Source: a virus
Virus record (IMG/VR): IMGVR_UViG_3300034120_000653
Span: 1-38,252 of that record
Length of the DNA stretch: 38,252 bases
Direction: 5' to 3' (one strand)
The notes beneath the pieces were generated by a model. It was not told the origin of the DNA. It ran no database searches and saw only the letters and a program-made list of their open reading frames with translations. Position 1 is the stretch's first letter, and each line of letters begins with the position of its first letter. A program made the translations under genes and the position numbers. Positions 5,339-38,252 of the stretch are shown in pieces.

Positions 5339-5339
5339 T
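5334..5339 (+). promoter_or_regulatory. Candidate -10 box upstream of the ssDNA-binding protein gene
   Basis: TATAAT overlaps the primase stop codon and precedes a 50-base untranslated gap before the next ATG at 5389, which has its own AGGAG. A separate transcript for an abundant ssDNA-binding protein would make sense. No clear -35 box is seen. Confidence 0.35.
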
Positions 5340-5388
5340 ATTTATATCGGCCCATGTATAGGGTCAAATACTTTTTAGGAGAACTATC

Positions 5389-6042: not shown

Positions 6043-6049
6043 TAAAATC

Positions 6050-6079
6050 TTGATCGTTGAGTAAGCAGTAGGATATACT
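6050..6079 (+). promoter_or_regulatory. Candidate promoter for the polymerase gene
   Basis: TTGATC (6050-6055), an 18-base spacer and TATACT (6074-6079) form a plausible sigma-70-type promoter in the 66-base gap before the DNA polymerase gene. The -10 box covers the loop and the first base of the right arm of the inverted repeat at 6059-6093. Confidence 0.45.
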
Positions 6080-6093
6080 CCTACTGCTTACTC
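6059..6093 (+). terminator. Perfect 15-bp inverted repeat, hairpin terminator or operator
   Basis: Left arm GAGTAAGCAGTAGGA (6059-6073), loop TATAC, right arm TCCTACTGCTTACTC (6079-6093); one more T-A pair can form outside. Read-through RNA from the ssDNA-binding protein gene would form a strong hairpin here. It is followed only by ATTTATT, so it is not a classical U-tract terminator, though actinobacterial terminators often lack one. It ends seven bases before the GGAGG of the polymerase gene, so an RNA from upstream would place the hairpin close to the ribosome-binding site. Confidence 0.6.
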
Positions 6094-6108
6094 ATTTATT
6101 GGAGGACC

Positions 6109-9100
6109 GTGTTTCATAATCATCATTCACACTCTTACTATTCTCTTCTAGACGGATATTCTTCTCCAGAAGAACTAGTAAAGCGTGCAGCAGAAGTAGG
6201 CATGAGCAGCCTAAGTATTACCGACCACGGGACATTGAGTGGTCACAGGGATATGATAAAGGCAGGCCGCGACAATAACATTAAACCTATTCTTGGTCTA
6301 GAGGCGTATTTCACTACTGATCGACTAGATAAAAGGTCTAGGAAAGAACGCACTCCAGATGATCAAATCTATAACCATCTTATCGTACTAGCCAAGAATG
6401 ATGTTGGTTTAGATAATCTGAACCTTATTTCCAGGAATGCCTGGGAAGAAGGATTTTTTGTTAAGCCACGCACCGACTTTGACATGCTTGAGTCTAATAA
6501 AAACGGTTTAGTTATTCTATCGGGTTGTATGAATAGTATTATTGCTAAGGCATTTGAGAACGATAACCCTACTGCCGCCCGACAATATGCTGGATGGTTC
6601 AAGGATGTATTTGGCGATGATTTTTACATGGAAATTCAGCCCCACAACCCTGCTGATTTGAACCATAATTTGTTAGATCTTGCAGACTCTATGGGGATTA
6701 AGTCTGTGGTAACTCTAGATTGTCACTTTGCCTCTCCAAAAGATCGGATAGCGGAAGAGATCATGCTCATCCTTGGAACTCATCCTAATGTGCTTAAGGA
6801 AGCAGATTTTAATAAGAGTCGTAAGATTAAAGATCTTATGGAGAGACTAGACTATCTATATGGTGATAGGCAAATGTCATTTAAGGATCTAGATATTTGG
6901 CTTATGGGGTATCAGGATGTTAAGGACCGTATGCTCGCTCAGGGTATTGAGCGTGAAGATATCTATGAACACAGCCTAGAGATCTCAGATAAGATCAGCG
7001 GCTATGATATTAAAGAGAACCTTGATCTACTTCCTGTTAAGCATAAAGATCCTGACGAGGAATTAAAGAAGAGAGTCATGGATGGGCTCCGCGAAAAAGA
7101 ACTTATTGAATTAGAATATCTTGATCGTGTCAAGGAAGAATTGCAGATTATTAAAGAGAAAAACTTTGCATCATACTTTCTTGTTGTAGCAAATATGATT
7201 AGTTGGGCTAAGAATAATGGAATCCTTGTAGGCCCTGGTCGTGGATCAGCGGCGGGGAGTCTAATCTGCTACGCTCTGGGAATCACTGATGTTGATCCTA
7301 TTGAGCATGGGCTACTATTCTTTCGATTTATTAATCCAGAAAGAAATGACTTTCCTGATATCGATACAGATTATGAAGACCGCCGTCGAACGGAGGTAAA
7401 AGACTACCTAATCTCTGAGTATCAGCATGTCGCTGCTATCGCTACATTCAATACTTTTAGGGATAAGGGAGTCGTTAGAGACGTTGCTAGAGCCTTTGGC
7501 ATCCCACTTACAGAGGTAAATAAAGCATTGAAGGGCGTTGAGACCTGGGAAGAATTCATGCGTAGTTCTACTGCCTCAGACTTCCGCTCACGTTACCCAG
7601 AAGTTGTTGAGTATGCTGATAGATTGCGTGGTCGTATTCGTGGCACAGGTTTACATGCGGCAGGTATTGTAACTTCCAAAGATGATATCTCTAAGTACGC
7701 CCCCATTGAAACTCGTAAAGATTCTCACAGCGATAATAGAATTTCTGTTGTCGCAGTAGATATGGAACAGGCGGCAGAGATTGGATTGATTAAGATCGAT
7801 GCTCTTGGACTCAAGACTCTCACTGTTGTAAAAGATACGTTGGAAAGCGTGAAAGAGCGTAAAGGTATTGAGATTAATCTTAAAGATATTCCAATGGATG
7901 ATTCAGAGGTTTATGCGGATCTTTCTGCTGGATTTACTAAAGGCGTTTTCCAGGCAGAAGCGACTCCTTATACCAACCTTCTCATAAAAATGGGGGTAAG
8001 TAATCTTAATGAACTTTCTGCTTCAAACGCTCTCGTACGCCCAGGGGCTATGAATACTATTGGTGCAGATTATATTAAAAGAAAGAAGGGCCGTCAGGCA
8101 GTATCTTATATTCATCCAATTGTTAAGGAGTTCACAGAAGATACTTATGGGTGTATCCTTTACCAGGAACAAGTTATGCAAGCCTGTGTTTACTTGGGTG
8201 GAATGACGATGGCAGAGGCAGATAAGGTTCGTAAGATTATTGGAAAGAAGAAGGATGCAAAAGAATTTGACCAGTTCAAGGATCAATTTGTTTCTGGCGC
8301 TTCACGACACATTTCTAAGGAATCCGCCGAAAAACTCTGGCATACTTTTGAGGCCCATGCTGGATACTCCTTTAATAAGAGTCATGCTGTGGCCTACTCT
8401 ACGCTATCTTATTGGACGGCTTGGCTTAAGAGATACTACCCAATAGAGTTCATGTATTCATTGCTTAAGAATGAATTAGATAAAGATAAGAGAACTGATT
8501 ATCTTATTGAAGCCAAAAGAATGAATATTAAGATTCGCCTCCCACACATCAATGAGTCTGGAGAAGACTTCACACTTGAGGGTGATGCTATTAGATTTGG
8601 GCTTGGAAATATTAAATACTTATCTGCTGGGATTTCTAAAAAGATTCTTGCTGGACGCCCGTTTAGTTCATACAAAGAGTTTATTGAATTCACTAGTAAA
8701 AAGGGTTCTGGTATTAATAGTCGTGCTGTCGATGCACTTAATAGAATTGGCGCTGCGGCATTTGAGGATAATCCAAGAACTGGCGATGAAAGAGAAAGCC
8801 TATATGAATTCTTAAATATTCCAGAGTTTGTTACTAATATTCCTCGTTGGGTAGAATCATACTTTAGACCTCTAGAAGAATATGATGAAAATGGTGCCTT
8901 CATTGTTATGGGGATGGTCAAATCTATTAAGCGAGGGGAGGGGTGGAGTAGAGTAGAAATAGTCGATAAGACAGGCAGTGTGGGGGTATTCCATAATCAA
9001 GATACAACGATTGAGCCTGGAAAGATGTATATCCTACTAATATCAGATAACAGGATTCTATCTTATCTAGCCCCAGATTCCCTTGACTCTAGCACTAGTT

Positions 9101-18015: not shown

Positions 18016-18086
18016 TGGAGAATGGTGTAATGGCAGCACAAATGTCTTTGGAACATTTAGTTTAGGTTCGACCCCTGATTCTCCAG
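18016..18086 (+). tRNA. tRNA-Gln (anticodon UUG)
   Basis: 71 bases with a full cloverleaf. Acceptor TGGAGAA pairs with TTCTCCA, discriminator G73. The anticodon stem AATGT/ACATT encloses the loop CTTTGGA, anticodon TTG, reading CAA. The T arm is TTAGG-TTCGACC-CCTGA. U1-A72 and G73 are identity elements of bacterial tRNA-Gln, and GGTGTAATGGCAGCA is a typical Gln D arm. CCA is not encoded. CAA suits the AT-rich coding of the phage. Confidence 0.93.
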
Positions 18087-18098
18087 CGTTTTAAGCAG

Positions 18099-18170
18099 TG
18101 GCATGTGGCGCAACGGCAGCGCAATCGGCTGTTAACCGATAGGTTGTAGGTTCGAATCCTACCATGCCAG
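18099..18170 (+). tRNA. tRNA-Asn (anticodon GUU)
   Basis: 72 bases with a full cloverleaf. Acceptor TGGCATG pairs with CATGCCA, discriminator G73. The anticodon stem ATCGG/CCGAT encloses CTGTTAA, anticodon GTT, reading AAC and AAT. The T arm is GTAGG-TTCGAAT-CCTAC. CCA is not encoded. Asparagine is frequent in the proteins of the sugar cassette, so the gene may compensate for low host supply. It lies 12 bases after tRNA-Gln. Confidence 0.95.
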
Positions 18171-18177
18171 CGTGGAA

Positions 18178-19888: not shown

Positions 19889-19907
19889 TCACAACTAATG
19901 GAGAATG

Positions 19908-21065
19908 ATGAGAATAGGATTACTATCTACTGACTGGGGAGATCATTTAGAAGGTCAGCCTGGAGGTTGTACTAATGTCAGAATGATGATTCCAGGGCTA
20001 CACCTAAATAAAATAGGTCATGAAGTTATGGTAGGTGAAATTGGCTGGAAAGATGGAGAAGGTTTTGTCGCAGTAAAACCTATCGAACGGTTAAAAGCAA
20101 AGCATAGATCAGTAATCAAAGAATACTCATGGGCTTTTGATAAACTAGATGTAGTAGTTCTAAAACTTTTTATGCATAAAGATGCAGTTAAGTATATTGA
20201 ACTTGCTAAGTCGTATGGTCAAACTGTAATTATTGACACAGACGATCACTTTGAGAAACTTCCAGAGGATAATTTAGCATTTATTACTACCGATCCTATT
20301 AGAAATCCAGATAATAATAGAGAGCATCTAATATCAACATATTCAGTTGCAGACGGAATTATTGCTAGCACTAAATTCTTAGAGCAAAGAATGCTTCAGT
20401 ATAACGATACAGTATATAGAGTAAAAAACTCTTTAGACCCACAAACTTTTATTTATAGATTAGATACTGCTGGATTTAAGCCTACTATTGGTTGGGTAGG
20501 CATTATGATGTGGCGAGTAGATGATTTAAAGCATGTCTCTGGACCCATTAAAACCACTATTGAAAAGTATGGTTTAAATTTTCATCATACGGGTATTATG
20601 CTAGATAGACCAAAATGGATCGCGGAAGCCCTCAATATCGACCCTGAAAGAGTCACTGGGTTCACTGGCTCAAGGCCAGAGTATTATGCTAATGTTTTTA
20701 TGCCAATAGATATTGGCATAGTACCGTTGAATCCGAATCAGTTTAATGAGGCTAAGAGTAATCTAAAAGGTCTTGAATATGCTCTATCTGGCATACCCTT
20801 TGTTGCATCAGATACCCAAGAGTATAGAGACTTAGCAGATATGGGGGTTGGAAGAATTGCTAAGTCAAATAAAGATTGGCTTAAACATCTAAAGCAGTTG
20901 CTTGATCCAGAAGTTAGAGAAGAGGAAAGGCAGAACAACTTTAAAATTGCCACACAGAACTTTAATATTTTTACAGTCAAATATCAGTGGTCTGAGGCAA
21001 TAGAACTTATTCATATGAAAGCACAAGCCGAAAAAAATAAGAAAATTTCTCTTCTTAAGGTATAA
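19908..21065 (+). CDS. GT4-like glycosyltransferase (GT-B fold)
   Basis: 385 residues from the ATG at 19908, which has GGAG four bases upstream; the ATG at 19905 is also possible. The N-terminal Rossmann half begins MRIGLLSTDWGDH and has PGGCTNVRMMIP (acceptor side). The C-terminal half contains NEAKSNLKGLEYALSGIPFV (about 282-301), the glutamate-rich donor-binding region of GT-B enzymes, and IGIVPL before it. It would transfer a nucleotide-activated sugar. It is 4 kb away from the sugar cassette and may serve the same glycan. Confidence 0.75.
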   Translation: MRIGLLSTDWGDHLEGQPGGCTNVRMMIPGLHLNKIGHEVMVGEIGWKDGEGFVAVKPIERLKAKHRSVIKEYSWAFDKLDVVVLKLFMHKDAVKYIELAKSYGQTVIIDTDDHFEKLPEDNLAFITTDPIRNPDNNREHLISTYSVADGIIASTKFLEQRMLQYNDTVYRVKNSLDPQTFIYRLDTAGFKPTIGWVGIMMWRVDDLKHVSGPIKTTIEKYGLNFHHTGIMLDRPKWIAEALNIDPERVTGFTGSRPEYYANVFMPIDIGIVPLNPNQFNEAKSNLKGLEYALSGIPFVASDTQEYRDLADMGVGRIAKSNKDWLKHLKQLLDPEVREEERQNNFKIATQNFNIFTVKYQWSEAIELIHMKAQAEKNKKISLLKV

Positions 21066-23941: not shown

Positions 23942-24710
23942 TCTTTCAGCCTATGTACACGTTCCAGTTTGTGAACTAGCGGTAAAAGAGGAAGAATCTT
24001 TTAATACTTTTAAGAGAGATAGTTATTTTACAACTATTTTAGAGCATACGTTAGAAGAGTTTTCTAAACAATTCCTGTCACGGGCTCTTAGTGAATACGC
24101 AGATAAAATTAATCTTATTAATTGGGAAAAGGTGGCGGAGAATGATTTAATAGGATCTCCAGTATTAACAGAATATCCAGAAATTCCTGGTGATAATAAA
24201 TTATTTTCACCGTCAACCATTGCTTATGTCTTTAAAGCACTAGATATTTTACAACATATGAAGGACAGTTCTTTAAATAATATAAATATTTTAGAGATCG
24301 GTGCTGGCTATGGCGGTCAATGTAAGATGATTCTAGACTTTGCCCCGCTATTTGATATCAGTATCAAGTCATATATTCTAGTAGATCTTTACTGGCCTAA
24401 CGAATTACAGAAAAAATATTTAGACTCTCTAGGGTATACCAAAAATATTAAATATATTTCATATGAAAAACTTTCTGACAACCAAGAAGTGCTTCCAGAA
24501 TTTAATTATTTAATTAGTGTATACGCATTAGGCGAATTTATGCCAGATGTTCAGCAGTTTTATATTGACAAAATGATTAATTTTCCATATCATTATTTAG
24601 TATGGAACACTCCAAATATACATGAATCATTCCTTTTATCAGACATAGAAGAGGAGCGTCCAAGAACTGGGCCATATAATGTGGTTATTAAAAGTAAGGT
24701 TAAAATATGA
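23934..24710 (+). CDS. Putative sugar O-methyltransferase
   Basis: 258 residues from the ATG at 23934, with GAGGAG eight bases upstream; an ATG-like start 15 bases earlier is less well placed. The SAM-binding motif I is [14 protein letters not shown] near 114-127, followed by a strand with YILVDLYWP (motif II acid) and [12 protein letters not shown]. The type resembles putative sugar O-methyltransferases that accompany polysaccharide genes. It is the first gene of the cassette and overlaps gmd by four bases, so it would methylate a sugar of the final glycan. The acceptor cannot be read from sequence. Confidence 0.7.
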
Positions 24711-25714
24711 AGACAGCATTGATTACTGGCATTACTGGTCAGGACGGATCATACCTTGCAGAGTTGCTGCTAGAAAAAGATTATGTTGTTCATGGAATTA
24801 AAAGAAGGTCATCATCTATCAATACACATAGAGTAGATCACCTTTACGACCATCCAAACTTTAAACTACATTATGGAGATCTTACAGATTCTCTATCTAC
24901 TGTGAAATTAATTGGTGAGATTCAGCCAGACGAAATTTATAATCTTGGCGCTCAAAGTCATGTCCAGGTGTCGTTTGAAACACCAGAGTCTACTGCTAAT
25001 TCCGATGCCCTAGGTACACTTAGGATGCTTGAAGGAATTAGAATGAACTACTTAGATCCAGTTACAAAGTTTTATCAGGCGGCTACGTCAGAATTATATG
25101 GATTAGTGCAAGAGGTCCCACAGTCTGAAACTACCCCCTTCTACCCTAGATCTCCATATGGAGTAGCAAAACTTTATGCTTATTGGATTACTAAGAATTA
25201 TCGTGAAGCCTATGATATGTTTGCTTGTAATGGAATTTTGTTTAACCATGAGTCGCCACGCAGAGGCGAGACATTTGTTACCAGAAAGATCGTCTTAGGT
25301 CTAAGAGATATTCAGTCGGGTAAGGCAGATGTTCTTAGACTAGGCAACCTAAATGCATTAAGAGACTGGGGCCATGCCAAAGATTTTGTTAGGGCGATGT
25401 GGCTAATGATGCAACAAGATTCGCCCGACGACTATGTTATTGCTACAGGTGAAGAGTACACAGTCAAGGACTTTGTTGAAAGGTGTGCCCCCTACTTTGG
25501 TATGTCTATTGAGTGGCAGGGTGAAGGATTTAATGAAATAGGAATCGACTCTAAAACTGGTAGAACCGTAGTAGTTGTAGACAAAAAATATATTCGTCCA
25601 GCAGAAGTAGATCGACTTCTTGGGGATGCTTCTAAAGCACAGAAAGAATTGGGCTGGAGCCCAGAGTACACCTTTGACGATCTAGTAAAGGATATGTGCA
25701 TTAATGGACTATAA
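24707..25714 (+). CDS. gmd: GDP-mannose 4,6-dehydratase
   Basis: 335 residues, a full-length extended short-chain dehydrogenase. Cofactor motif [15 protein letters not shown] (about 7-21), catalytic ATSELYG (about 126-132, T-S-E) and [12 protein letters not shown] with Y-x-x-x-K (about 150-161), then [15 protein letters not shown] (about 179-193), typical of GMD. It converts GDP-D-mannose to GDP-4-keto-6-deoxy-D-mannose with internal NADP(H) recycling, in the cytoplasm. That product feeds the next two enzymes, GDP-fucose synthase and the perosamine-synthase-like aminotransferase. GDP-mannose must come from the host. Confidence 0.95.
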
Positions 25715-26639
25715 CTCATCTATTTATGTAGCAGGTCATAATGGTTTAGTAGGATCTTCTTTAGTTAGAAGATTAAAAATGGTTGGCTATCATAATATTA
25801 TTACAGCAGATCGTTCTAGATTAGATTTGCGTAACCAAATGAGTGTAAAAAGATTCTTTGCTGTTCAAAAACCAGAGTATGTTTTTTTAGCAGCCGCAAA
25901 AGTTGGAGGAATTACATATAATCAAAGTTCTCCAGCGGACTTTATTTATGATAATCTTGCTATACAGAATAACGTTATCCATTCTTCATATGAAAATAAA
26001 GTAAAGAAACTTATGTTCCTTGGCTCCGCGTGTATATATCCTAAAGTTACCCCACAGCCAATAAAAGAAGAATACCTATTGACAGCACCATTAGAAGAAA
26101 CAAATGAAGGCTATGCATTAGCAAAAATTGCAGGGCTAAAAATGTGTCAAAGGTACAAAGAGCAATATGGTTTTAACGCTATTTCAGCCATGCCAGCAAA
26201 CTTATATGGAATCAATGATAATTTTAATATAAATCAGTGCCATGTTATACCAGCCATGATCTATAAATTTCATGAGGCGCTGTTAAATAATTCAAAGCAA
26301 GTTACTTTGTTTGGGGACGGTAGTCCCACCAGGGAATTCCTACATGTAGATGATCTTTCAGATGCATTAATATTCCTTATGAATAATTATGAAGATTCTT
26401 CTCATATTAATATTGGCTCTGGAAAAGAATACTCTATTAAAGAACTGGCAGATATTATTTCTCGCACAGTTGGATGGAACGGTAATATTATTTGGGACAA
26501 AGATAAGCCAAATGGTACTCCACGAAGAAAACTTGATATATCTAAGTTAAATCATTTAGGGTGGTCTTCATCGATAGATTTAGAAAATGGGATAAACGAT
26601 ACATACGGATGGTTCTTAGAAAATAATGACTATTCATAA
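25704..26639 (+). CDS. fcl: GDP-L-fucose synthase (epimerase/reductase)
   Basis: 311 residues. [18 protein letters not shown] (about 7-24) is the family's NADP site, GSACIYPK (about 109-116) holds the serine and cysteine, [10 protein letters not shown] (about 134-143) the Y-x-x-x-K, and [10 protein letters not shown] the catalytic histidine. It converts GDP-4-keto-6-deoxymannose to GDP-L-fucose by 3,5-epimerisation and reduction. It overlaps gmd by 11 bases and the aminotransferase by 14. GDP-fucose would supply the GT10 and GT11 genes encoded downstream. Confidence 0.93.
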
Positions 26640-27717
26640 GAACATTCCAGTCTACGCTCCATCCATTACTGAACTAGAGAAAAAATATGTTAATGAATGT
26701 TTAGAGTCTTCCTGGATATCCTCTCGCGGCCCGAATGTTGATATGTTTGAACAATTATTTACAGAAAAAATTGGTGTGGAGTATGGAACAACAGTTTCAA
26801 ATGGTACTGTTGCTTTACATTTAGCACTATTAAGTTTAGGCATTGGTCCAGGAGATGAAGTAATTGTTCCAACGTTAACCTATATCGCTCCAGTAAATGC
26901 TATAAAGTATGTCGGAGCCACACCAGTATTTGTAGATTCCTTGTATGATTCATGGCAGATGAACCCAGAAGATATTACTAGAAAGATTACTGATAGAACA
27001 AAGGCTATTCTTGCTGTTCATTTATATGGTCATCCATGCGACTTAGATTTAATTAATAAAATTTGTAAAGATAATAATCTATTTCTTGTAGAGGATTGTG
27101 CAGAAGCATTTGGGACTATGTTTAGAAATAAACATGTTGGCACCTTTGGGGACATAGCGACATTTAGTTTTTTTGGAAACAAGACAATAACCACTGGTGA
27201 AGGCGGCATGGTGGTTTCAAACAATAAGGATTTAATAGACATTTGCTTTCATTTAAAGGGGCAGGGCTTGGCGGAAGGAAAACAATACTGGCACGATGCC
27301 ATAGGGTATAACTACCGTTTGACCAATGTTGCATGTGCTATTGGTATCGCCCAACTACAAAGATCTGATTATTTAATTAACAGGAAGTTAGAAATAGCAT
27401 CTTTATACAGAGAAGGTTTCTATAATACTGGTTATGAATTTCATAGTGAGGCTCCTAATACTAGACACAGTTATTGGATGTGTAGTATATTGGGATCAGA
27501 ATATAAAGATCGTGATAATCTAATGAATTATCTAAGTGCAAATAGAATAGAAACTAGGCCAGTATTCTATCCTATTCATACAATGCCTATGTACAATACT
27601 CAACAGAGTTTTATGGTTGCAGAAGATATTTCTCGCAGAGGATTAAATCTACCTAGTTATCCAGATTTAAGTGATGATGAAGTTAAATATGTTATAGAGA
27701 AAGTGTTGTCCCACTAA
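26626..27717 (+). CDS. PLP-dependent sugar aminotransferase, perosamine-synthase-like (DegT/DnrJ/EryC1/StrS family)
   Basis: 363 residues. Family features: SSWISSRGPNVDMFEQ (about 25-40), VSNGTVALHLAL (about 59-70), PTLTYIAPVNAI, EDCAEAFG (about 156-163) and FFGNKTITTGEGGMVV (about 183-198), where the lysine binds PLP. The gene between fcl and an acetyltransferase, directly after gmd, makes GDP-4-keto-6-deoxymannose the likely substrate and GDP-perosamine the product. The F-G-N-K-T-I-T-T-G-E-G-G motif is shared with known perosamine synthases. Another 4-amino sugar cannot be excluded. It ends in TAATG with the acetyltransferase gene. Confidence 0.85.
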   Translation: MTIHKNIPVYAPSITELEKKYVNECLESSWISSRGPNVDMFEQLFTEKIGVEYGTTVSNGTVALHLALLSLGIGPGDEVIVPTLTYIAPVNAIKYVGATPVFVDSLYDSWQMNPEDITRKITDRTKAILAVHLYGHPCDLDLINKICKDNNLFLVEDCAEAFGTMFRNKHVGTFGDIATFSFFGNKTITTGEGGMVVSNNKDLIDICFHLKGQGLAEGKQYWHDAIGYNYRLTNVACAIGIAQLQRSDYLINRKLEIASLYREGFYNTGYEFHSEAPNTRHSYWMCSILGSEYKDRDNLMNYLSANRIETRPVFYPIHTMPMYNTQQSFMVAEDISRRGLNLPSYPDLSDDEVKYVIEKVLSH

Positions 27718-28304
27718 TGAATTTATTTAATTCTGGATTTTATACAGAAAAAGACTTGGTTGACGCAGGATTTAAAAACATTGGAAATAATATTTTAATT
27801 GATAAAAACTGCACAATTATCGGACTACATAATATATCTATTGGGTCTAATGTAAGAATAGATGCGTATACAACTATAACAGCCTCAGAGGGCGGGGATT
27901 TAAGCATAGGATCAAATATTCATATCGCAGGATATTGTCTGTTGGCTGCATCAGGTGGTATAATTATGGAAGATTTTTCTGCTATATCTCACGGCACAAA
28001 AATATATTCCGCTTCTGATGATTATTCTGGCGGGTATTTAACAAATGCTGTGATCCCAGATAAGTATAAAAATGTTAAACGTGGACTGGTAACATTAAAA
28101 AAGCATTCTTTAATAGGATCTAGTTCAGTTTTATTACCAGGAATAGTAGTCGGTGAAGGGACCACTGTAGGAGCCATGTCTTTAGTATCTAAAAATTTAG
28201 ATGATTGGTCGGTGTATGCAGGAATCCCTGCTAAAAAAATAAAAGACAGGCCAAGAGATTTGTTAGGACTTGAACAAGAATATGTGAGGGAGAGCGGTGT
28301 CTGA
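27717..28304 (+). CDS. Left-handed beta-helix acetyltransferase, likely amino-sugar N-acetyltransferase
   Basis: 195 residues with hexapeptide repeats: LSIGSNIHIAG, GIIMEDFSAIS, HSLIGSSSVLLPGIVVGEGT and TVGAMSLVSKNL (about 60-165), ending VYAGIPAKKIKDRP, the closing segment of NeuD/WbbJ-type acetyltransferases. SHGTKIYSASDD near 98-109 contains the usual active-site histidine. Coupled by TAATG to the perosamine-synthase-like gene, it should acetylate that 4-amino sugar and yield GDP-N-acetylperosamine. An acyl group other than acetyl is possible. Confidence 0.8.
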   Translation: MNLFNSGFYTEKDLVDAGFKNIGNNILIDKNCTIIGLHNISIGSNVRIDAYTTITASEGGDLSIGSNIHIAGYCLLAASGGIIMEDFSAISHGTKIYSASDDYSGGYLTNAVIPDKYKNVKRGLVTLKKHSLIGSSSVLLPGIVVGEGTTVGAMSLVSKNLDDWSVYAGIPAKKIKDRPRDLLGLEQEYVRESGV

Positions 28305-28605
28305 TACCCTTGGATCTTTAATTGATAAATTAAATACCATTGATTTAAAAATGTGGAACAATCAAGAACTCCTCTATGAGATTAGAAGAATGTCATTCGA
28401 TGAATATAAAGAAAAATACTTTTCAGACACGGCGGGAGCAGAACTATTGTGGGACTCCTTGAAAAAAGCCTGTGATTTAAATGTCCAGAGGAACCAACTA
28501 ATTGATGAGATAGATGAAAAAATTGTAGAAATTGTTCAAGCATCTATGTCTGGGCTAGATTTAGATAATGGAAAATTTATACAAAGAAAGCATAAAACAT
28601 ACTGA
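28297..28605 (+). CDS. Hypothetical helical protein in the sugar cassette
   Basis: 102 residues, GTG start overlapping the previous gene by eight bases, with GGGAGAG before it. It is all-helical with SLIDKLNTIDLKMWNNQELL (about 7-26) and DLNVQRNQLIDEIDEKIVEI (about 66-85). Similar small proteins (DUF4254-like, from memory) occur in bacterial glycan clusters between nucleotide-sugar enzymes and glycosyltransferases. The function is unknown; a scaffold or regulator of glycosyltransferases would fit. Confidence 0.55.
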   Translation: MSDTLGSLIDKLNTIDLKMWNNQELLYEIRRMSFDEYKEKYFSDTAGAELLWDSLKKACDLNVQRNQLIDEIDEKIVEIVQASMSGLDLDNGKFIQRKHKTY

Positions 28606-29459
28606 TGATTGATAGGATTGTTTTCTTTAATAATTTTCATAATGGTGATGTATTTTTCTCTAAACCATATGTTAAACATCTATCTGAAATTTTAGAATAT
28701 AACGACTATTCATATGCTCATAATAATGATCATAAAATAGTAAAAGATTTAAATATGAATCATTTTTTAATAGGACATAGATTTCAACAAGATCGCACAT
28801 TTAGTTATGAAGATAAATTATACATAAATACCTGGATCGGAAACTACTTATCAAATGGTAGAAACTGCAACTGGATTTCATTACATGAAATGTACGAAGA
28901 GGTGTACAACTATTTACAGGAACTCTTAGATAAAGAAGTTAAGATATTAGATAGAGAATTTTATCAAACATTTATAGACTTCTCTGTATTTGATGTACCG
29001 CTGGACTTTGAGTGTGACTATGAAAATACAATAATGTTTTCCAACGGTCCTGTTTTATCTGGTCAATCTTCAATACTAAATACATCCAATATAGTAAAAC
29101 TCTTATGCGACAGATTTCCAGATAAAAAAATTATACTTACACACCAGTCAGATATAGAAAATGATAATATCGTATATACAAGAGATATTATTAACACAGC
29201 GGGTTCAGATCTTAATGAAATATCTTGGCTTTCTACAAAATGTAAGTATATAATTGGTAGACAGTCAGGTCCATTTAGTTTTATGCAGATTAATGAAAAC
29301 CTGAATGATAAGAATAAAGTGATGATAAGCATGTCTAACTCAGAGGCAGTAGACTGGTTGTATAATATTAAAGTTCCATGCAAATATATAAACCTTTTAG
29401 ATCAGGATGAAGATGCTTTGATAGAAAATATTTATCAAGAATTGGTAGGAACATGTTAA
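28605..29459 (+). CDS. GT9-like glycosyltransferase (probable)
   Basis: 284 residues, ATG overlapping the previous stop (TGATG). The opening RIVFFNNFHNGDVFFSKPYV (about 4-23) resembles the acceptor-side G-D-x-x-x-x-x-P of heptosyltransferase-like GT-B enzymes, and the C-terminal half shows KKIILTHQSD and SWLSTKCKYIIGRQSGPFSF (about 207-226), close to the donor-binding S-x-C-x-x-x-I-G-x-x-S-G pattern of GT9. Codons are very AT-rich and asparagine is frequent. The sugar transferred is not predictable. It overlaps the GT10-like gene by seven bases. Confidence 0.6.
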   Translation: MIDRIVFFNNFHNGDVFFSKPYVKHLSEILEYNDYSYAHNNDHKIVKDLNMNHFLIGHRFQQDRTFSYEDKLYINTWIGNYLSNGRNCNWISLHEMYEEVYNYLQELLDKEVKILDREFYQTFIDFSVFDVPLDFECDYENTIMFSNGPVLSGQSSILNTSNIVKLLCDRFPDKKIILTHQSDIENDNIVYTRDIINTAGSDLNEISWLSTKCKYIIGRQSGPFSFMQINENLNDKNKVMISMSNSEAVDWLYNIKVPCKYINLLDQDEDALIENIYQELVGTC

Positions 29460-30283
29460 AGTATCATATTAAGGGTATGGCTTACGATGAATTCTCTATG
29501 ACAATATTTTCTCGGATTAATAGATTCCCTAAGAATCTTGTGCCCTGCTTTGAAACAAAAGACTCGGATATTGATTTAATATTATGGCTAGATGACGAGA
29601 TTCTAACGTGTAATGAATACTCTAAGTATAATTATGCAACCCTAACTGAGTCTGCCGCAATTGTTCCACAGACATATGAAAAATTTGCTAACAATTTTGA
29701 CTCAATAATTCAGAACTTTAATATGATTTTTACTCACAGTAGAGAATTAGTTAATATGCATGAAAAGATAAAGTGGATACCAGCAACTGCAACCTGGATT
29801 CAGGAGCCCCGTGTCCGTGAAAAAAGTAAAAAAATATCTATGATTACTTCTACAAAAAATTGGGCGGTGGGGCACAAAAAAAGAATGGAATTAGCAAGTT
29901 CTTTATCTGGCAAGGTAGACTTATATGGTCGTGGAATTAATGAAATAGAGTTTAAAGAGCAGGGTCTAGATGACTATATGTTTTCAATCGCTCATGAAAA
30001 CGCTAACTATCCTGGGTACTTTACTGAGAAGATTCTAGATTGTTTTTCTACTGGAACGATTCCAGTTTATTGGGGAGACCCCAGTATTGGAGAGGTGTTT
30101 AATACGGATGGAATTATTTTATTGGACGGCAAGTTTGATCCAGAAGCACTAACGGAAGATATATACTATTCAAAAATGGATGCGATCAAAGAAAACTGTG
30201 AGATAGTAAAAAACAACTTTATGATGGTAGAAGATTATATTTATGATAATTACTTAAAGGATTTAGATGACGATCTATCATAA
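29453..30283 (+). CDS. Fucosyltransferase of GT10 type
   Basis: 276 residues. FSIAHENANYPGYFTEKIL followed by DCFSTGTIPVYWGDP (about 181-214) is the GT10 donor-binding signature: E-N in a Y-x-T-E-K setting and G-x-x-P-x-Y-W-G. The N-terminal part has an acceptor domain with ILWLDDE. Known GT10 enzymes move L-fucose from GDP-fucose in alpha-1,3 or 1,4 linkage. The donor is made by fcl in the same cassette, which supports the call. It overlaps neighbours by 7 and 17 bases. Confidence 0.85.
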   Translation: MLKYHIKGMAYDEFSMTIFSRINRFPKNLVPCFETKDSDIDLILWLDDEILTCNEYSKYNYATLTESAAIVPQTYEKFANNFDSIIQNFNMIFTHSRELVNMHEKIKWIPATATWIQEPRVREKSKKISMITSTKNWAVGHKKRMELASSLSGKVDLYGRGINEIEFKEQGLDDYMFSIAHENANYPGYFTEKILDCFSTGTIPVYWGDPSIGEVFNTDGIILLDGKFDPEALTEDIYYSKMDAIKENCEIVKNNFMMVEDYIYDNYLKDLDDDLS

Positions 30284-31040
30284 TGAAATTGGAAACCTAG
30301 GTAATATAGGAAACCAAATGTTTCAGTACGCTTCCCTACAAGGAATCGCCTATCACAGGGGCCTTGACTGGAAAATTCCGCCAAAGAATAATTTTGGAAA
30401 GAATTATTCTTTATTAAAAAGCAATATATATGACTGTTTTTATTTAGATTTAAATATTGATGAACATATTGGAGTTCTTATTGGAGAGACTAGAGCAGAG
30501 TCCAAACACGGATTTGACCAGGATCTATTTGAGAACTGTCCAGACGATGTAAATATTTCTGGATACTTACAGTCATATAAATATTTTGATGCCATTAAAA
30601 ATAAAATTAGAAGAGACTTTACTTTTCTTCCGTCATCGGTAGAGGTTATTCCTCAAAAAAATACTTTGTCTATACATGTACGAAGAACTGACTATTTAAG
30701 TTTGTCTCAGTATCACACTAACTTAACTAATGAATATTATTCTGCTGCTCTAGATATTATCGGTGACTTTTCTGAGGCCATAGTCTTCTCAGATGATATT
30801 GATTGGTGTAAAACTCTTCCGATATTTGAGGGATTTACTTTTAGTCTGGGCGATTCATATACCGATTTACAGTTAATGTCTAAGTGCGATAAACATATTA
30901 TTGCAAACTCATCATTTAGTTGGTGGGGCGCGTGGCTATCTGGTAGTGATAATGTTGTTGCTCCAAAAGAATGGTTTGGGCCAGCGCTGCCAGACCACGA
31001 TACTGATGGATACTATCTTCCTTCCTGGACGGTGATCTAA
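30267..31040 (+). CDS. Alpha-1,2-fucosyltransferase of GT11 type
   Basis: 257 residues. GNIGNQMFQYASLQGIA (about 13-29) is the GT11 opening, SIHVRRTDYLS (about 132-142) the GDP-fucose-binding H-x-R-R-x-D-Y motif, and IIANSSFSWWGAWLSG (about 211-226) the C-terminal motif. All three are intact. It would add alpha-1,2-linked fucose from GDP-L-fucose. Two separate fucosyltransferases next to the donor pathway suggest a glycan with at least two fucose residues or alternative acceptors. Confidence 0.9.
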   Translation: MTIYHNEIGNLGNIGNQMFQYASLQGIAYHRGLDWKIPPKNNFGKNYSLLKSNIYDCFYLDLNIDEHIGVLIGETRAESKHGFDQDLFENCPDDVNISGYLQSYKYFDAIKNKIRRDFTFLPSSVEVIPQKNTLSIHVRRTDYLSLSQYHTNLTNEYYSAALDIIGDFSEAIVFSDDIDWCKTLPIFEGFTFSLGDSYTDLQLMSKCDKHIIANSSFSWWGAWLSGSDNVVAPKEWFGPALPDHDTDGYYLPSWTVI

Positions 31041-31645
31041 TGTTTACTGACTATTTTGAGCAAGCATTTTGTATTAATTTAGATAGTAGAAAAGATAGAT
31101 GGAAAGCATCACAGAAACAGTTTAAAAAAATAGGGTTAAAGGTAGAGCGTATTCCTGCTGTCAATGGTTTTGAAGAACCTCCAGCAAGTATTCGTCCAGG
31201 AGAAGTAGGGTGTCTTAAATCACACCTTAAAGTATTTCAAATTGCCAAAGAGAGAGGGCTAAAGTCTTTTCTAATGCTAGAAGATGATGTTGAATTTTCT
31301 GATACGTTTCATGAAAGATTCAATATCATAGAGCCACAAATAAAGCCATTTGAAATGCTATATTTTGGATCTAACCCACATAGTGGTGAGCGGCATGAAG
31401 TTTCCCCAAACATAAATAGAATTACATATACTTTTTCAGCCCACTGTGTTATCTTTAACGAGCCCTGCTTTGATGATATTATCAGGGAACTAATGGGGCC
31501 ATTATTATCTCCAGTAGACGTTGTATATGGTAGGCAACAGGTTGTTCATACAGCATACTCAATAAAGCCTGCTCTTGCATGGCAGAGAAAAGATTTTTCT
31601 GATATTAATCAAGAAATCGTTGACTATCAGTTTTTGAGAGGATAG
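31040..31645 (+). CDS. GT25-type glycosyltransferase
   Basis: 201 residues starting in the previous stop (TAATG). QAFCINLDSRKDRW (about 8-21) is the classical GT25 opening, VERIPAVNG (about 35-43) and GEVGCLKSHLKVFQIA (about 53-68) follow, and FLMLEDDVEF (about 75-84) contains the E-D-D metal-binding motif. GT25 enzymes typically move galactose, but the sugar is not predictable. It may extend the glycan made with the fucosyltransferases. Confidence 0.85.
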   Translation: MFTDYFEQAFCINLDSRKDRWKASQKQFKKIGLKVERIPAVNGFEEPPASIRPGEVGCLKSHLKVFQIAKERGLKSFLMLEDDVEFSDTFHERFNIIEPQIKPFEMLYFGSNPHSGERHEVSPNINRITYTFSAHCVIFNEPCFDDIIRELMGPLLSPVDVVYGRQQVVHTAYSIKPALAWQRKDFSDINQEIVDYQFLRG

Positions 31646-31653
31646 AATAAAGC

Positions 31654-32265
31654 GTGCCTAAATTTACTATTATTGCTACTGACGCAGAAAATCATGTCCC
31701 TAGAGATAGACTGAAAGAAGGCATTGATTCTTTAGTTAATCAAACATTCAAAGACTTTGAACTTCTTATTATTCATGATGGACCTAGAGAAGGATCGTAT
31801 GACGACGAACTTGATGAAGTGCCAGAGAACACAGGGTTTATTCAGACAGAGAAACACTATGGAATCTACGGACTAGATGAATTCTATGCTGGATATGGGT
31901 GGGGCCACCATTCAAGAGATCTTGGCATTAAAAAATCGGCAGGAGATTATATTATTCATTTTAATATCGATAATATACTTTATCCACATGCGTTACAGAC
32001 AATATCAGATAAAATAGATAAGACTAAGGCTGATGTTGTCATATATGCATGTACACATGAAAAGTTTGGAGTTAAATATTTCTCTGGAATACCGCCAGTA
32101 ATGGGCAAGGTTGACTTGCTCCAAGGAGTTGTAAGTAAAAATGCTTGGGAGTCTATTGGTGGGTGGTATAGGTATGATCACTCTGCCGATGGATACTTAC
32201 TAGAAGAAATAGTGGCGAGGTATGGATATGTTCATATCCCAGAAATATTAGGAGAAAATAGATAA
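31654..32265 (+). CDS. GT2-type glycosyltransferase
   Basis: 203 residues, GTG start with GAGAGG twelve bases upstream. The GT-A fold begins FTIIATDAENHVPRDRLKEG (about 4-23) with SLVNQTFKDFELLIIHDGPR (about 27-46). The metal-binding strand is DYIIHFNIDNILYP (about 100-113), where N-I-D-N replaces the common D-x-D. The enzyme is short and lacks a membrane segment, as expected for a soluble phage transferase. Acceptor unknown. TAATG connects it to the next transferase. Confidence 0.75.
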   Translation: MPKFTIIATDAENHVPRDRLKEGIDSLVNQTFKDFELLIIHDGPREGSYDDELDEVPENTGFIQTEKHYGIYGLDEFYAGYGWGHHSRDLGIKKSAGDYIIHFNIDNILYPHALQTISDKIDKTKADVVIYACTHEKFGVKYFSGIPPVMGKVDLLQGVVSKNAWESIGGWYRYDHSADGYLLEEIVARYGYVHIPEILGENR

Positions 32266-33056
32266 TGCCAGTGTATGAGGACATTAAAGTTGCATTAGAG
32301 TATCAAAAAGAGAACGGCGACAACAGTAATCTTATCCCCGATGATGTTCCAATTATTATTCCAACATTTAATACCCCTACATATTTACAGTCTATGATAG
32401 ATCAATTAGAAGATAGGGGATGGACAAACATTATCGTATTTGATAATGCTTCAACGTACCCACCTATGCTAGATTTATTAAATAAACTATCTAATAAATA
32501 TCATGTAGTTCTTTCTAAGAAAAATCTTGGGCCGAGAATAATTACTGAGAGTAAAGATATTTGTTCAAGTATGCCAAAGTATTTTACTGTTACCGATCCA
32601 GATCTATTATTTAACCCTTCTATGCCATCGAATCCATTTAATAAAATGAAAAGAATTCTTGATACATATGGCGCATCTAAGGTTGGCCTTGCTATAGAAA
32701 TTGATGACCCAGAGGAAAGAAATAGATTCTTTAATGCAGATCAGGTTGATCAATGGGAAAGAAATTACTGGTCACGCAAGATAGACAGGCTCCCAGAAAT
32801 TGATGATCTTTACGCCGCCCCAATTGATACGACATTTTGTTTATATAATCGTGATCAATTTCTATCGGAGATTGATAATGTTTTTGGTAAGATGACTTGC
32901 AATACAAGTGCAATTAGAGTTGCTGGAAGGTTTACCTGCCGTCATATGGGTTGGTGGGCAGAACAACCGTTAACAGATGAGGAACATAATTTCTATAAGA
33001 GTACCCATACTTGGTCGTCTACTGAAAATGAGAAGAAAAGGTTAGGATATAAATGA
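32265..33056 (+). CDS. GT2-like glycosyltransferase (GT-A fold)
   Basis: 263 residues starting in the previous stop. VPIIIPTFNTPTYLQSMID (about 28-46), NIIVFDNASTYPP (about 55-67) and YFTVTDPDLLFNPS (about 106-119) with a D-P-D metal site give the GT-A pattern. The C-terminal part has FTCRHMGWW (about 227-235), resembling the H-x-G-W-W-x motif of bacterial family 2-like and beta-kinase-like transferases. It is the last transferase in the cassette. The donor is unknown. Confidence 0.75.
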   Translation: MPVYEDIKVALEYQKENGDNSNLIPDDVPIIIPTFNTPTYLQSMIDQLEDRGWTNIIVFDNASTYPPMLDLLNKLSNKYHVVLSKKNLGPRIITESKDICSSMPKYFTVTDPDLLFNPSMPSNPFNKMKRILDTYGASKVGLAIEIDDPEERNRFFNADQVDQWERNYWSRKIDRLPEIDDLYAAPIDTTFCLYNRDQFLSEIDNVFGKMTCNTSAIRVAGRFTCRHMGWWAEQPLTDEEHNFYKSTHTWSSTENEKKRLGYK

Positions 33057-34063
33057 CTACTGTACTTTTGACAGGTGCTAGCGGTTTCGTTGGCAGCCAT
33101 GTGTTACGACACATTCTTGCTAACACAGACTGGAATGTTGTATGCTTGGTATCTTTTAGGCATCGTGGTATTACTGATAGAATCCGAATGGCGGTGGCAG
33201 GGTATGACGATGACTTTAAACGTACTAAGGTTATTAAACATGATTTAACTGCACCTATCTCTCCTGTTCTATCTCATGAGATTGGTAAGATTGACTATGT
33301 TCTTAATGTTGCCAGTGATTCGCATGTTGATAGATCTATTGAGGAGCCTGTCCCGTTCATTGAGAATAATGTTTCTCTAGTTTGTAATATGCTAGAGTGG
33401 GCACGATTCTCAGACATTGAGAAGTTTGTCCATGTATCTACAGATGAGGTGTATGGACCAGCCCCAGTTGGTCATGCCCACCGTGAATGGATGGACCAGT
33501 ACTTCCCCAGTAATCCATACTCAGCATCCAAGGCAGCACAGGAGTCTATTGCTTATTCATATTGGAGGACATATGGTGTCCCCCTAATTATTACTAATAC
33601 TATGAACATCATTGGTGAAATGCAGGACCCAGAGAAGTTTATTCCTATGATTATGAAAAAGGTTATTGCTGGAGAAACAGTAACTATTCACGCCGCACCG
33701 ACAGGTGAGATTGGAAGTAGGTTCTATCTACATGCTAGGAACCAGGCTGATGCCCTCCTACATGCCCTGACACAGCCTACGCCAGCATATGGCGAGACTC
33801 AGGCCCCTCAGAAATTTCATGTGGTCGGTGAGCGTGAGGTAGATAATTTAGAGATGGCAGAACTTGTAGCATCGTATGTGGGAAAGCCTCTCAACTATGA
33901 ACTTGTGGATTTTCACTCATCTAGGCCAGGGCATGACTTGCGTTACGCTCTGGACGGTGGTAAAATTGCTAATACAGGGTGGAAGGCACCCCTATCACTA
34001 GAACAATCACTAGAAAGAACGGTACAATGGACTCTGGACCATCCAGAGTGGCTAACGCTATGA
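33053..34063 (+). CDS. NAD-dependent nucleotide-sugar dehydratase/epimerase, RmlB-like
   Basis: 336 residues. VLLTGASGFVGSHVLRHIL (about 4-22) is the NAD site, HVSTDEVYGPAP (about 126-137) contains the T-D-E of 4,6-dehydratases, and NPYSASKAAQESIAYSYW (about 155-172) the Y-x-x-x-K. NTMNIIGEMQDPEKFIPM resembles the RmlB N-N-Y-G-P-x-Q-x-P-E-K-F-I-P segment. It likely makes a second 4-keto-6-deoxy nucleotide sugar. No nucleotidyltransferase or further rml genes are seen, so the substrate would be a host product. Its DNA is less AT-rich than the transferases before it, suggesting a separate origin. Confidence 0.85.
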   Translation: MTTVLLTGASGFVGSHVLRHILANTDWNVVCLVSFRHRGITDRIRMAVAGYDDDFKRTKVIKHDLTAPISPVLSHEIGKIDYVLNVASDSHVDRSIEEPVPFIENNVSLVCNMLEWARFSDIEKFVHVSTDEVYGPAPVGHAHREWMDQYFPSNPYSASKAAQESIAYSYWRTYGVPLIITNTMNIIGEMQDPEKFIPMIMKKVIAGETVTIHAAPTGEIGSRFYLHARNQADALLHALTQPTPAYGETQAPQKFHVVGEREVDNLEMAELVASYVGKPLNYELVDFHSSRPGHDLRYALDGGKIANTGWKAPLSLEQSLERTVQWTLDHPEWLTL

Positions 34064-36477: not shown

Positions 36478-36656
36478 TGCCAGGTTTAACATATGTTGCA
36501 GAAGCCTTAATGAAGTCGTGGTTTCCTAAAAGATATAATGATCCAGAATGGATTAATTCAGACGACGGAAAAAACTGGGCTGAGATTGCTATGCTGGACG
36601 CAGAAGTGGCAATAAACGCTTATAACGAATACTTAAATAAAAAATATGAGCGTTAG
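36477..36656 (+). CDS. Small hypothetical protein
   Basis: 59 residues beginning in the previous stop (TAATG). MPGLTYVAEALMKSWFPKRY starts an amphipathic helix, NWAEIAMLDAEVAINAYNEY a second one. It looks like a two-helix protein, basic at the end. No family recognised. It overlaps the next gene by 11 bases. Confidence 0.5.
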   Translation: MPGLTYVAEALMKSWFPKRYNDPEWINSDDGKNWAEIAMLDAEVAINAYNEYLNKKYER

Positions 36657-36846
36657 ATGCTGGCAATGCTCTGAGGAATTAGATACCTCATCTGTTGAGC
36701 GCGAGGTGTATAATAGATTGATCATAGATTTGCGTAGTCTTATGTGTCAAACTTCACATAATGATTATTGCGATCTTTGGTGGCGGCATGAGTCATGTGA
36801 CACTCTACAAGGACTCATAGCAGAATTAAAGGAGAAATTGTTATGA
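36646..36846 (+). CDS. Small zinc-binding protein
   Basis: 66 residues. RCWQCSEELD gives a CxxC at 5-8, and the second part contains C (MCQTSHNDYC) with W-W-R-H-E-S-C, an H/C pair that could complete a metal site. Helical remainder. It overlaps both neighbours. Function unknown. Confidence 0.5.
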   Translation: MSVRCWQCSEELDTSSVEREVYNRLIIDLRSLMCQTSHNDYCDLWWRHESCDTLQGLIAELKEKLL

Positions 36847-37019: not shown

Positions 37020-37189
37020 TGGATAATGATGATCTTCTAAGAGATTTAGAAATTGCTAGTAAGGATATTAAAAAGTCCACGGGAGGCAAGGCTGGTGAGG
37101 GTACCGAAAAAAAATATGGTCAGGCGTATGCAGCATGTGTCAAAGCAGGATTGAAAGCGCCTTTAAGAAAGAAGTATCGGGCACTATAA
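37019..37189 (+). CDS. Basic micro-protein
   Basis: 56 residues starting in the previous stop. MDNDDLLRDLEIASKDIKKS is followed by a glycine/lysine-rich linker and a basic helix (KKYGQAYAACVKAGLKAPLR). Nucleic-acid binding is possible from its charge. No family recognised. Confidence 0.5.
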   Translation: MDNDDLLRDLEIASKDIKKSTGGKAGEGTEKKYGQAYAACVKAGLKAPLRKKYRAL

Positions 37190-37198
37190 GAAGATCTT

Positions 37199-38122
37199 AT
37201 GAAAATTTGTGTATCTATCGCTTCTTATAGAGATCCAGATTTAATTAATACAGTTAACTCTGCCTATAATAATGCAAAGAATAAAAAGGATATATCTTTT
37301 TGTGTTGTTTCTCAGGCGGCTGATGATGAACACCCAGATTTATCACATATCCCCAATGTAATTTATCTTAAATACCATTGGTCTGAATCTAATGGGCTAT
37401 GCTGGGCTAGAAATATTGGAACTAATAATTCTAATGGAGAATTTACTGTACAAGTAGACTCTCATTCTAGGTTTAATCAAAACTGGGATGAAATCCTTAG
37501 TGATTTCTATCATAAAGCGGTGAGTTACTGGGGGGATAGAATTATCATATCAAAAAACTCTGATCCTTTTGAAATAAAAGAAGACGGAACTGAAGAGTTT
37601 TCTGAGTACCCTATTGTAGTTAAAACTAAACCTCTTTGGAATACTGAGTATAATAGATTTACTTTTGGTAATTCTTGGCACAATGTTGAAAATTATACTT
37701 ACGGGGATGAAGTATTTTATATCTCTGGAGGAGGAACATTTGCCAGAACTGACATACTTAAAAGTGTTGCCCCCGATCCAGTAATTTACTTTGAAGATCA
37801 AATGTCCGTGGCTATTCGTGCATATACAAGGGGTATTAGATTAATCTTTTGCCCAGAGAATTTTGTGTTCAGCCTACACGATAGGTCTGGAGACTTTGAC
37901 AGATTGGCATCATTTACTGGGCCACCCCCCAAGATAAATAGGAGATTACATTGGGAGGATAATCCAAAATGGGGTGACTCATCTGTTAAGATGTGGGCGT
38001 CTAATAGACGATTAGATCAATTATATTCTGGAAAATTAGGTGGATTCTGGGGCATAGGATCTAGAGAACTCTATGAACAATTTGCTAAAATAAATGAGAT
38101 AAACTTTATAGAACGAGATTGA
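37199..38122 (+). CDS. GlcNAc-transferase-like glycosyltransferase (GT60/Skp1-type)
   Basis: 307 residues. ICVSIASYRDPDLINTVNSA (about 3-22) and SNGLCWARNIG (about 63-73) followed by VQVDSHSRFNQNWDEIL (about 84-100) form the GlcNAc-transferase (PF11397-like) signature, where D-S-H is the metal site. ISGGGTFARTDIL near 174-186 and YFEDQMSVAIRAYTRGI near 197-213 continue the acceptor region. Relatives add GlcNAc to hydroxyproline or serine/threonine on proteins. It is 3 kb after the cassette; a protein-O-glycosylating role would supply the linkage sugar. That is inference. Confidence 0.8.
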   Translation: MKICVSIASYRDPDLINTVNSAYNNAKNKKDISFCVVSQAADDEHPDLSHIPNVIYLKYHWSESNGLCWARNIGTNNSNGEFTVQVDSHSRFNQNWDEILSDFYHKAVSYWGDRIIISKNSDPFEIKEDGTEEFSEYPIVVKTKPLWNTEYNRFTFGNSWHNVENYTYGDEVFYISGGGTFARTDILKSVAPDPVIYFEDQMSVAIRAYTRGIRLIFCPENFVFSLHDRSGDFDRLASFTGPPPKINRRLHWEDNPKWGDSSVKMWASNRRLDQLYSGKLGGFWGIGSRELYEQFAKINEINFIERD

Positions 38123-38165
38123 AAATAAAAACCGAAAAGTCGAAAGCCGAAACAGAAAGAAACAT
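38123..38165 (+). other. Purine-rich leader with CGAAA repeats
   Basis: The 43-base gap consists of repeated CGAAA/AGAAA units (CCGAAAAGTCGAAAGCC, then CGAAACAGAAAGAAAC) with almost no T. No promoter or hairpin is visible. It may act as an extended ribosome-binding leader for the next ATG. Confidence 0.35.
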
Positions 38166-38252
38166 ATGAAACGTTATATTATGCCACCCTATCGGGTGAT
38201 ATTTAATAGAGTGAATGACTCTTCCACGACTACGCGGGGCACTATCTACCGG
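38166..38252 (+). CDS. Start of a gene cut by the window end
   Basis: The ATG at 38166 opens a frame that runs to the last base (29 codons): MKRYIMPPYRVIFNRVNDSS followed by TTTRGTIYR. The local base composition rises in GC toward the end. The product cannot be named from this fragment; the basic, beta-prone start would fit a small structural or DNA-binding protein. Confidence 0.45.
   Translation, partial: MKRYIMPPYRVIFNRVNDSSTTTRGTIYR

Follow-up and report, generated by a model that had tools for sequence, protein, structure and literature searches.

The DNA described here is a single stretch of 38,252 bp, referred to below as the window, which is the entire IMG/VR record and is a fragment of a tailed phage. 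Genes for terminase, DnaB, primase, DNA polymerase III alpha, UvsX and a Cas4-type protein are present, and the tail genes of the phage fall outside the fragment. An actinobacterial host is pointed to by a WhiB gene (PF02467, 9e-12) and by the terminase, which is 62% identical to Streptomyces phage terminases. The phage is of a freshwater type, and the combination of whiB and a glycosyltransferase is also reported for cultured freshwater Nanopelagicales phages (PMC10202952). A tRNA-Gln lies beside a tRNA-Asn at 18016-18171, the latter sharing 94% identity with a tRNA-Asn of Streptomyces phage Wakanda across about 49 bp. The gene of interest, P0001, encodes a protein of 307 amino acids; its position and those of the features around it are given in the table.

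Table. Coordinates of features in the window (last row: a relative)
Feature	Position	Strand	Basis
P0001, PF11397 / GalNAc-transferase-fold glycosyltransferase, 307 aa	37199..38122	+	Intact ATG ORF, Pfam, PHROGs, predicted model
D87-S88-H89 (DSH), DxH motif of P0001	37457..37465	+	Aligned to D-A-H of GalNAc-T7
D200-Q201 of P0001, replacing near-invariant E-E	37796..37801	+	Alignment of 78 sequences
Ser225 of P0001, replacing near-invariant His	37871..37873	+	Alignment of 78 sequences
Inserted segment, 943 bp	37180..38122	.	Flanks 3 bases apart in relative G002
Conserved small gene left of insertion site	36646..36846	+	92-97% identity in four relatives
Small ORF at left junction, about 56 codons	37019..37189	+	Read by eye; left flank also in G002
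Right flank	38123..38252	+	Adjoins left flank in G002
Fucose/sugar cassette	24707..34063	+	Pfam and comparison with relatives
P0002, GT4-like glycosyltransferase	19905..21065	+	Syntenic in relatives; not PF11397
Two PF11397 genes of G193	L531 3763-5034 and 483-1637	-	Pfam

The gene had been described in an earlier note as PF11397-like with a D-S-H metal site, which was confirmed: P0001 matches the Pfam family PF11397 'GlcNAc' with an E-value of 9.7e-22 and 78.3 bits against a cut-off of 21, and the motif lies at residues 87-89. PF11397 was matched in none of 14 control genomes, and therefore the match in P0001 is not due to chance. The protein also matches PF00535 (GT2), at 23.4 bits barely above the cut-off of 23.3, and the PHROGs glycosyltransferase family phrog_24687 (E=5e-21). 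Searching with P0001 as the sole query found no close relatives. The nearest in IMG/VR, L107, shares 43% identity, the 77 aligned relatives range from 22 to 44%, and a phmmer search of the PDB returned chance matches to WD40 proteins and one weak glycosyltransferase, and nothing else. The single match among 50,697 phage records was to Xanthomonas phage XacN1, whose glycosyltransferase ORF334 scores 260.8 bits against PF11397 and is 24% identical to P0001, but belongs to another clade of the tree and adjoins a carbamoyltransferase gene. Family members were found in 334 of the first 599 candidate viral-contig stretches and at 63 bacterial loci. Across the 78 aligned sequences, the aspartate of the DxH motif is found in 75 and the histidine in all 78, and eight positions are invariant, all of which P0001 therefore retains.

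An AlphaFold model of P0001 built from three aligned sequences was discarded (pLDDT 40) and a model built from all 78 was used instead (pLDDT 90.1, pTM 0.90). All 50 Foldseek matches listed for this model are GalNAc-transferases, with a best E-value of 8.4e-12. Likewise, the top 29 entries ranked by VIA are all GalNAc-transferases, with the best Z of 23.2 obtained against GalNAc-T2 (rmsd 3.0, 260 residues aligned), and the first folds outside this group are B4GALNT1 (Z 17.9) and chondroitin polymerase (Z 17.4). Residues 1-305 align with the catalytic region of GalNAc-T2; the protein ends after this region, and no Pfam match to a C-terminal ricin-like lectin domain was found in it. At the sequence level, the family profile matches GalNAc-T7 with an E-value of 0.0052, placing DSH on DAH and GEE on GEN. 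Hence the GT27 GalNAc-transferases (GalNAc-T1, T2, T7, T10) are the best fold match and share the DxH motif, although P0001 is only 14-18% identical to them and is without the lectin domain. PF11397, which we take to correspond to GT60, is also the domain of the polypeptide alpha-GlcNAc-transferases of Dictyostelium (Skp1 Gnt1) and T. cruzi, and P0001, judged from the predicted model and the sequence, resembles these enzymes in its GT-A fold, its DxH motif and its lack of a C-terminal lectin domain. This fits the description of GT60 enzymes in PMC8724618 as relatives of the GalNAc-transferases without the ricin-like domain. P0001 differs from GT60 in being phage-encoded, in its altered active site, in a donor, linkage and acceptor that are putative, and in having no recognised hydroxylase in the window. 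Together, the PF11397 match and the match of the predicted fold make a protein-acting HexNAc-transferase fold well supported, and P0001 is a phage homologue of the polypeptide HexNAc-transferases.

P0001 arrived at its present location as a precise single-gene insertion. Both flanks of the insert align with the relative G002 (L088), the left one as far as base 37179 and the right one from 38123 onward, with 83% identity over 540 bp and 89% over 105 columns; in G002 they are separated by three bases, the left one ending at L088:1793 and the right one beginning at L088:1797. A second relative, G009 (L089), matches the left flank to the same base, and a weakly DUF6065-like gene sits at its site. 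In G194 (L520) the site holds a phrog_1574 gene together with a further homologue of GT10, and in G195 (L521) a 2OG-Fe(II) oxygenase gene (PF13640, 1.7e-14) is located about 0.6 kb beyond the conserved small gene. Given that G009, G194 and G195 carry different genes at the same place, this is a variable cargo site, into which P0001 moved alone. The gene had also been called detached from the sugar cassette, rightly, as it lies 3.1 kb downstream of the cassette end at 34063.

Of 80 terminase relatives, 46 were searched whole for PF11397, and two, G023 and G046, contain it. In G023 the gene sits among consecutive fibre-like and collagen-like genes, and in G046 it is near genes that look 2OG-oxygenase-like by eye and have no Pfam match. 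The congener G193 has a single run, on the minus strand at L531 483-6274, with two 2OG-type and two PF11397 genes: after the tail-fibre genes come a 160-aa gene, a weak 2OG-like gene, a PF13640 oxygenase (3.7e-11), a PF11397 gene, three similar genes (the one checked is phrog_7084) and the second PF11397 gene. In a quick tree, assessed by SH-aLRT only and with P0001, G046 and G023 on long branches, P0001 groups with L107 (SH-aLRT 97) in a clade made up mostly of tail-module genes; one member of this clade, L180, adjoins a terminase and not a tail module. A prolyl-hydroxylase-like gene ends 17 bp upstream of the L107 PF11397 gene. Its product has the pattern H-x-D...H and on its own matches phrog_61 at 1.9e-29, and a four-sequence profile that includes it matches prolyl 4-hydroxylase (P4H) structures with a best E-value of 1e-14. 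The PHROGs labels 'ferrochelatase' and 'DNA endonuclease' attached to such oxygenase genes were rejected as mislabels, as the profile with these proteins matches P4H structures. A prolyl-hydroxylase-like neighbor, as in the Skp1 pathway, is seen in some P0001 relatives (L107, L149 and G193).

The 108 phage loci were collapsed into 60 clusters at 90% identity, and an oxygenase, recognised by the P4H profile or as a member of a family we call fam2, directly neighbors the PF11397 gene in 5 of 13 clade-A clusters versus 1 of 47 others (Fisher p 0.0012), a count that is inflated because fam2 was seeded from genes already lying beside a PF11397 gene. By the P4H profile alone, an oxygenase adjoins the PF11397 gene in L107 and L149 only, and most clusters have no adjacent oxygenase. 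The fam2 proteins, encoded upstream in L108, L110 and L259, have weak 2OG-type Pfam matches below cut-off and no match in the PDB, and we regard them only tentatively as hydroxylases. Counted per record, phrog_61 is found in 12 of 46 PF11397 records versus 5 of 46 terminase relatives, which is less of a contrast, and in PF11397 records the majority of these genes lie far from the PF11397 gene. Among 20 of the proteins of the window, itself a fragment, Pfam recognised no hydroxylase. The location of homologues in tail-fibre modules favors a protein acceptor, and the relatives indicate that PF11397 enzymes act on tail proteins, sometimes together with a hydroxylase. In the tail module of L109, two tryptophan-halogenase-like genes lie between the P4H-like and PF11397 genes (4853-7868; the first matches phrog_2928 at 1.5e-139), and halogenation of a virion protein is possible there.

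Many of the PF11397 genes also lie close to genes for proteins rich in proline, threonine and serine. Using thresholds that were chosen after looking at the data, a protein with at least 28 such residues in 40 is encoded within 6 kb in 24 of 60 PF11397 clusters and in none of 80 terminase control loci; L107 and L250 form one cluster in this count, which is positive through L250. At thresholds of 24, 26 and 28 per 40, such proteins are found at 11, 10 and 9 of 14 clade-A loci (L250 being counted here besides its cluster-mate L107), in 15, 15 and 15 of the 47 other clusters, and at 4, 2 and 0 of the 80 terminase loci. Examples include (TP)n repeats in L250, L108 and L110 and (TPPV)n repeats in L265 and L259. 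PASTA domains are present in the proteins of L108 and L110, and a laminin-G-like domain in that of L265, as expected of tail adhesins. Because the terminase control represents one phage lineage, a within-record test and an (AP)9 control were added. In 11 of the 15 records tested the nearest (TP)4 DNA site is no more than 2 kb from the PF11397 gene, where random placement predicts 2.9 and none of 20,000 shuffles reached 11; this test covers the records with a (TP)4 site and leaves out the other 31 of 46 PF11397 records. Conversely, PF11397 is found in 8 of 50 (TP)9 records and 0 of 50 (AP)9 records (p 0.0058), the former sampled from 70 loci with an in-frame TP ORF among 80 found, and the latter from 80 loci in frame or not. 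The same PF11397 query that was silent in the (AP)9 set gave matches in the (TP)9 set, and restricted to the loci alone the comparison is 7 of 70 versus 0 of 59 in-frame (p 0.015). However, the association could arise solely from a common location in tail modules. No protein of this kind is encoded in the window, where the maximum is 18 of 40 residues, and in the relatives G002 and G009, examined over their full length, a single ORF, of 70 aa in G002, reached the thresholds. Two Pro/Thr-rich proteins have a C-terminal region that is intein/Hint-like, in L110 (7913-9424) by a PF14890 match below cut-off (E 0.0034) and in L107 (3-593) by eye only.

From these observations we favor, at slightly better than even confidence, the reading that P0001 is a cargo GT-A polypeptide HexNAc-transferase that acts, or is descended from enzymes that act, on a tail protein of its own phage. 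P0001, a PF11397 protein with the predicted fold of the GT27/GT60 enzymes by which animals and protists initiate mucin-type O-glycans, came in as a single-gene cargo insertion; it or its ancestors would work inside the infected cell on serine, threonine or hydroxyproline, the acceptor would be one of the tail proteins of the phage, and the O-glycosylation would help to vary the sugar coat of the virion. Against this, P0001, unlike its relatives, lies outside a tail module. The family, the predicted fold, the insertion, the failure to co-occur with the cassette and the presence of relatives in tail modules along with hydroxylases and P/T-rich proteins are results of the analysis, whereas we infer the acceptor, the donor sugar and the activity of P0001 with confidence only a little above an even chance, as no acceptor can be made out and its active site has changed. 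A wider proposal, which we hold tentatively and below an even chance, is that many tailed phages of aquatic habitats have a mucin-type O-glycosylation system of their own, which makes a glycosylated, partly hydroxylated, mucin-like tail brush. A tail protein with (TP)n, (TPPV)n or poly-Thr would be encoded beside an initiating enzyme of PF11397 and GalNAc-transferase fold, in some cases along with a 2OG prolyl hydroxylase. P0001 would then be a relocated member of this repertoire, in a cargo site where relatives hold others (the 2OG oxygenase of G195, the GT10 homologue of G194 and the DUF6065-like gene of G009). This putative system of the relatives is a more interesting outcome than the function of P0001 itself.

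Alternatively, P0001 could modify a surface polysaccharide or lipid of the host and so, for instance, prevent superinfection, as has been proposed for glycosyltransferases of phages (PMC10202952). The presence of PF11397 relatives at bacterial loci and the position of P0001 outside a tail module agree with such a role, but its best fold match is to peptide-acting enzymes and its closest phage relatives adjoin tail genes, and we consider it unlikely.

The active site of P0001 raises another alternative. Four near-invariant positions are changed, E200D, E201Q, H225S and Y227H, at which the usual residue is present in 75, 77, 73 and 74 of the 78 sequences, respectively. Position 225 aligns with the histidine of the G-H-I-Y motif of GalNAc-T7, which is presumably the third metal ligand. 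Of the three ligands that we assume for GT27 (Asp, His, His), P0001 thus keeps Asp87 and His89 and has Ser225 as the third, and EDQ stands in place of GEE/GEN. Threonine occupies the histidine position in L107, L250, L108 and L110, and both sister pairs are under purifying selection (L107/L250, dN 0.040 and dS 0.455; L108/L110, dN 0.217 and dS 1.208), so loss of the histidine alone does not mean a dead protein. Nevertheless, P0001 carries further active-site changes beyond the lost histidine. Its own activity is uncertain because the normally conserved E201 and His225 are replaced by Gln and Ser, and given these substitutions the same doubt applies to whether it transfers GlcNAc, with retention, to a Ser, Thr or hydroxyproline residue in a protein. 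P0001 might therefore be a degenerate or regulatory pseudo-glycosyltransferase residing in the cargo site, and decay does occur in this group, as one G193 PF11397 gene (L531 3763-5034) has lost the DSH motif and reads S-S-A. However, the 307-codon ORF is intact, DSH and the eight invariant residues are kept, and the sister genes without the histidine are under selection, all of which make such a degenerate protein improbable.

The cassette of the window comprises genes for Gmd, Fcl, a DegT aminotransferase, a hexapeptide transferase, GT10, GT11, GT25, GT2, a GT2-like enzyme and a dehydratase-like protein. Extension of a protein-bound GlcNAc by GT25, GT11 and GT10 enzymes would give a Lewis-type glycan. 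G002, G194 and G195 have the cassette, with some gene replacements, and their records extend beyond the insertion region; G010 was left out of the count because its cassette is partial and its record ends before the site. PF11397 is absent from all three records that extend beyond the region, and the converse is seen in G193, which has PF11397 three times but no Gmd, Fcl, GT10 or GT11 in the interval bounded by the same flanking genes. The proposal of the earlier note, that a protein receives its first sugar from P0001, perhaps with P0002, and that the cassette extends it, including with fucose, is the least probable of the alternatives, for although the genes are 3.1 kb apart in one genome, the extension is chemically sensible and the Skp1 chain contains GlcNAc, Gal and Fuc (PMC8724618), the co-occurrence it predicts failed in the relatives, and G002 shares the cassette and both flanks without the insertion. 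In our reading P0001 is not the dedicated starter of the fucose cassette; what survives of the initiator idea is the HexNAc-transferase fold and the homologues in tail-fibre modules. P0002, likewise suggested to start the chain, is a GT4/GT1-like glycosyltransferase (PF13692, 22.6 bits, below the cut-off of 27; phrog_7162, E=3.8e-33). Its homologues occur at 10 of 80 terminase-relative loci, of which many do not extend far enough to reveal it, and the best eight are 65-84% identical. Since its synteny is kept whether or not the fucose genes are present, there is nothing to link it to initiation. The GDP-fucose synthesis genes with GT10, GT11 and GT25 at 24707-31645 make a possible H/Lewis-type fucosylation set, which varies among close relatives.

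To our knowledge, mucin-type O-glycosylation is usually regarded as a eukaryotic trait. We found no description of PF11397/GT60 genes or of prolyl hydroxylases in phage tail modules, nor of such a mucin-like tail system, in the literature searched, to which subscription papers mostly do not belong. A parallel is mycobacteriophage Maravista, also an actinophage encoding glycosyltransferases, for which PMC11256854 proposes glycosylation of the capsid, a virion-protein target; with XacN1 as the sole phage match, no mycobacteriophage relative of P0001 is detectable at that sensitivity. The findings in relatives suggest that some phages may sugar-coat their own tails. If phages do encode the initiator of this process alongside prolyl hydroxylases and Pro/Thr-rich tail proteins, abundant aquatic virions would bear mucin-like brushes of sugar, with possible effects on adsorption and decay, and new peptide glycosyltransferases could be drawn from phages; a family widespread in viral contigs also gains a testable function. 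Other modifying enzymes are encoded near PF11397 genes or in related genomes. Carbamoyltransferase genes lie near PF11397 genes at L106 13409-15706 (XacN1), L101 8739-10160 (G046) and L265 11960-13384, and a relative that bears the cassette has a sulfotransferase gene (PF13469, 4.7e-15) in its tail-fibre region, at L534 9269-10099 (G195 71268-72098). In G010 (L092, 3414-7695), the DNA polymerase III alpha gene is interrupted by an unrelated 256-aa ORF, an arrangement that resembles an intron or intein harboring a homing gene.
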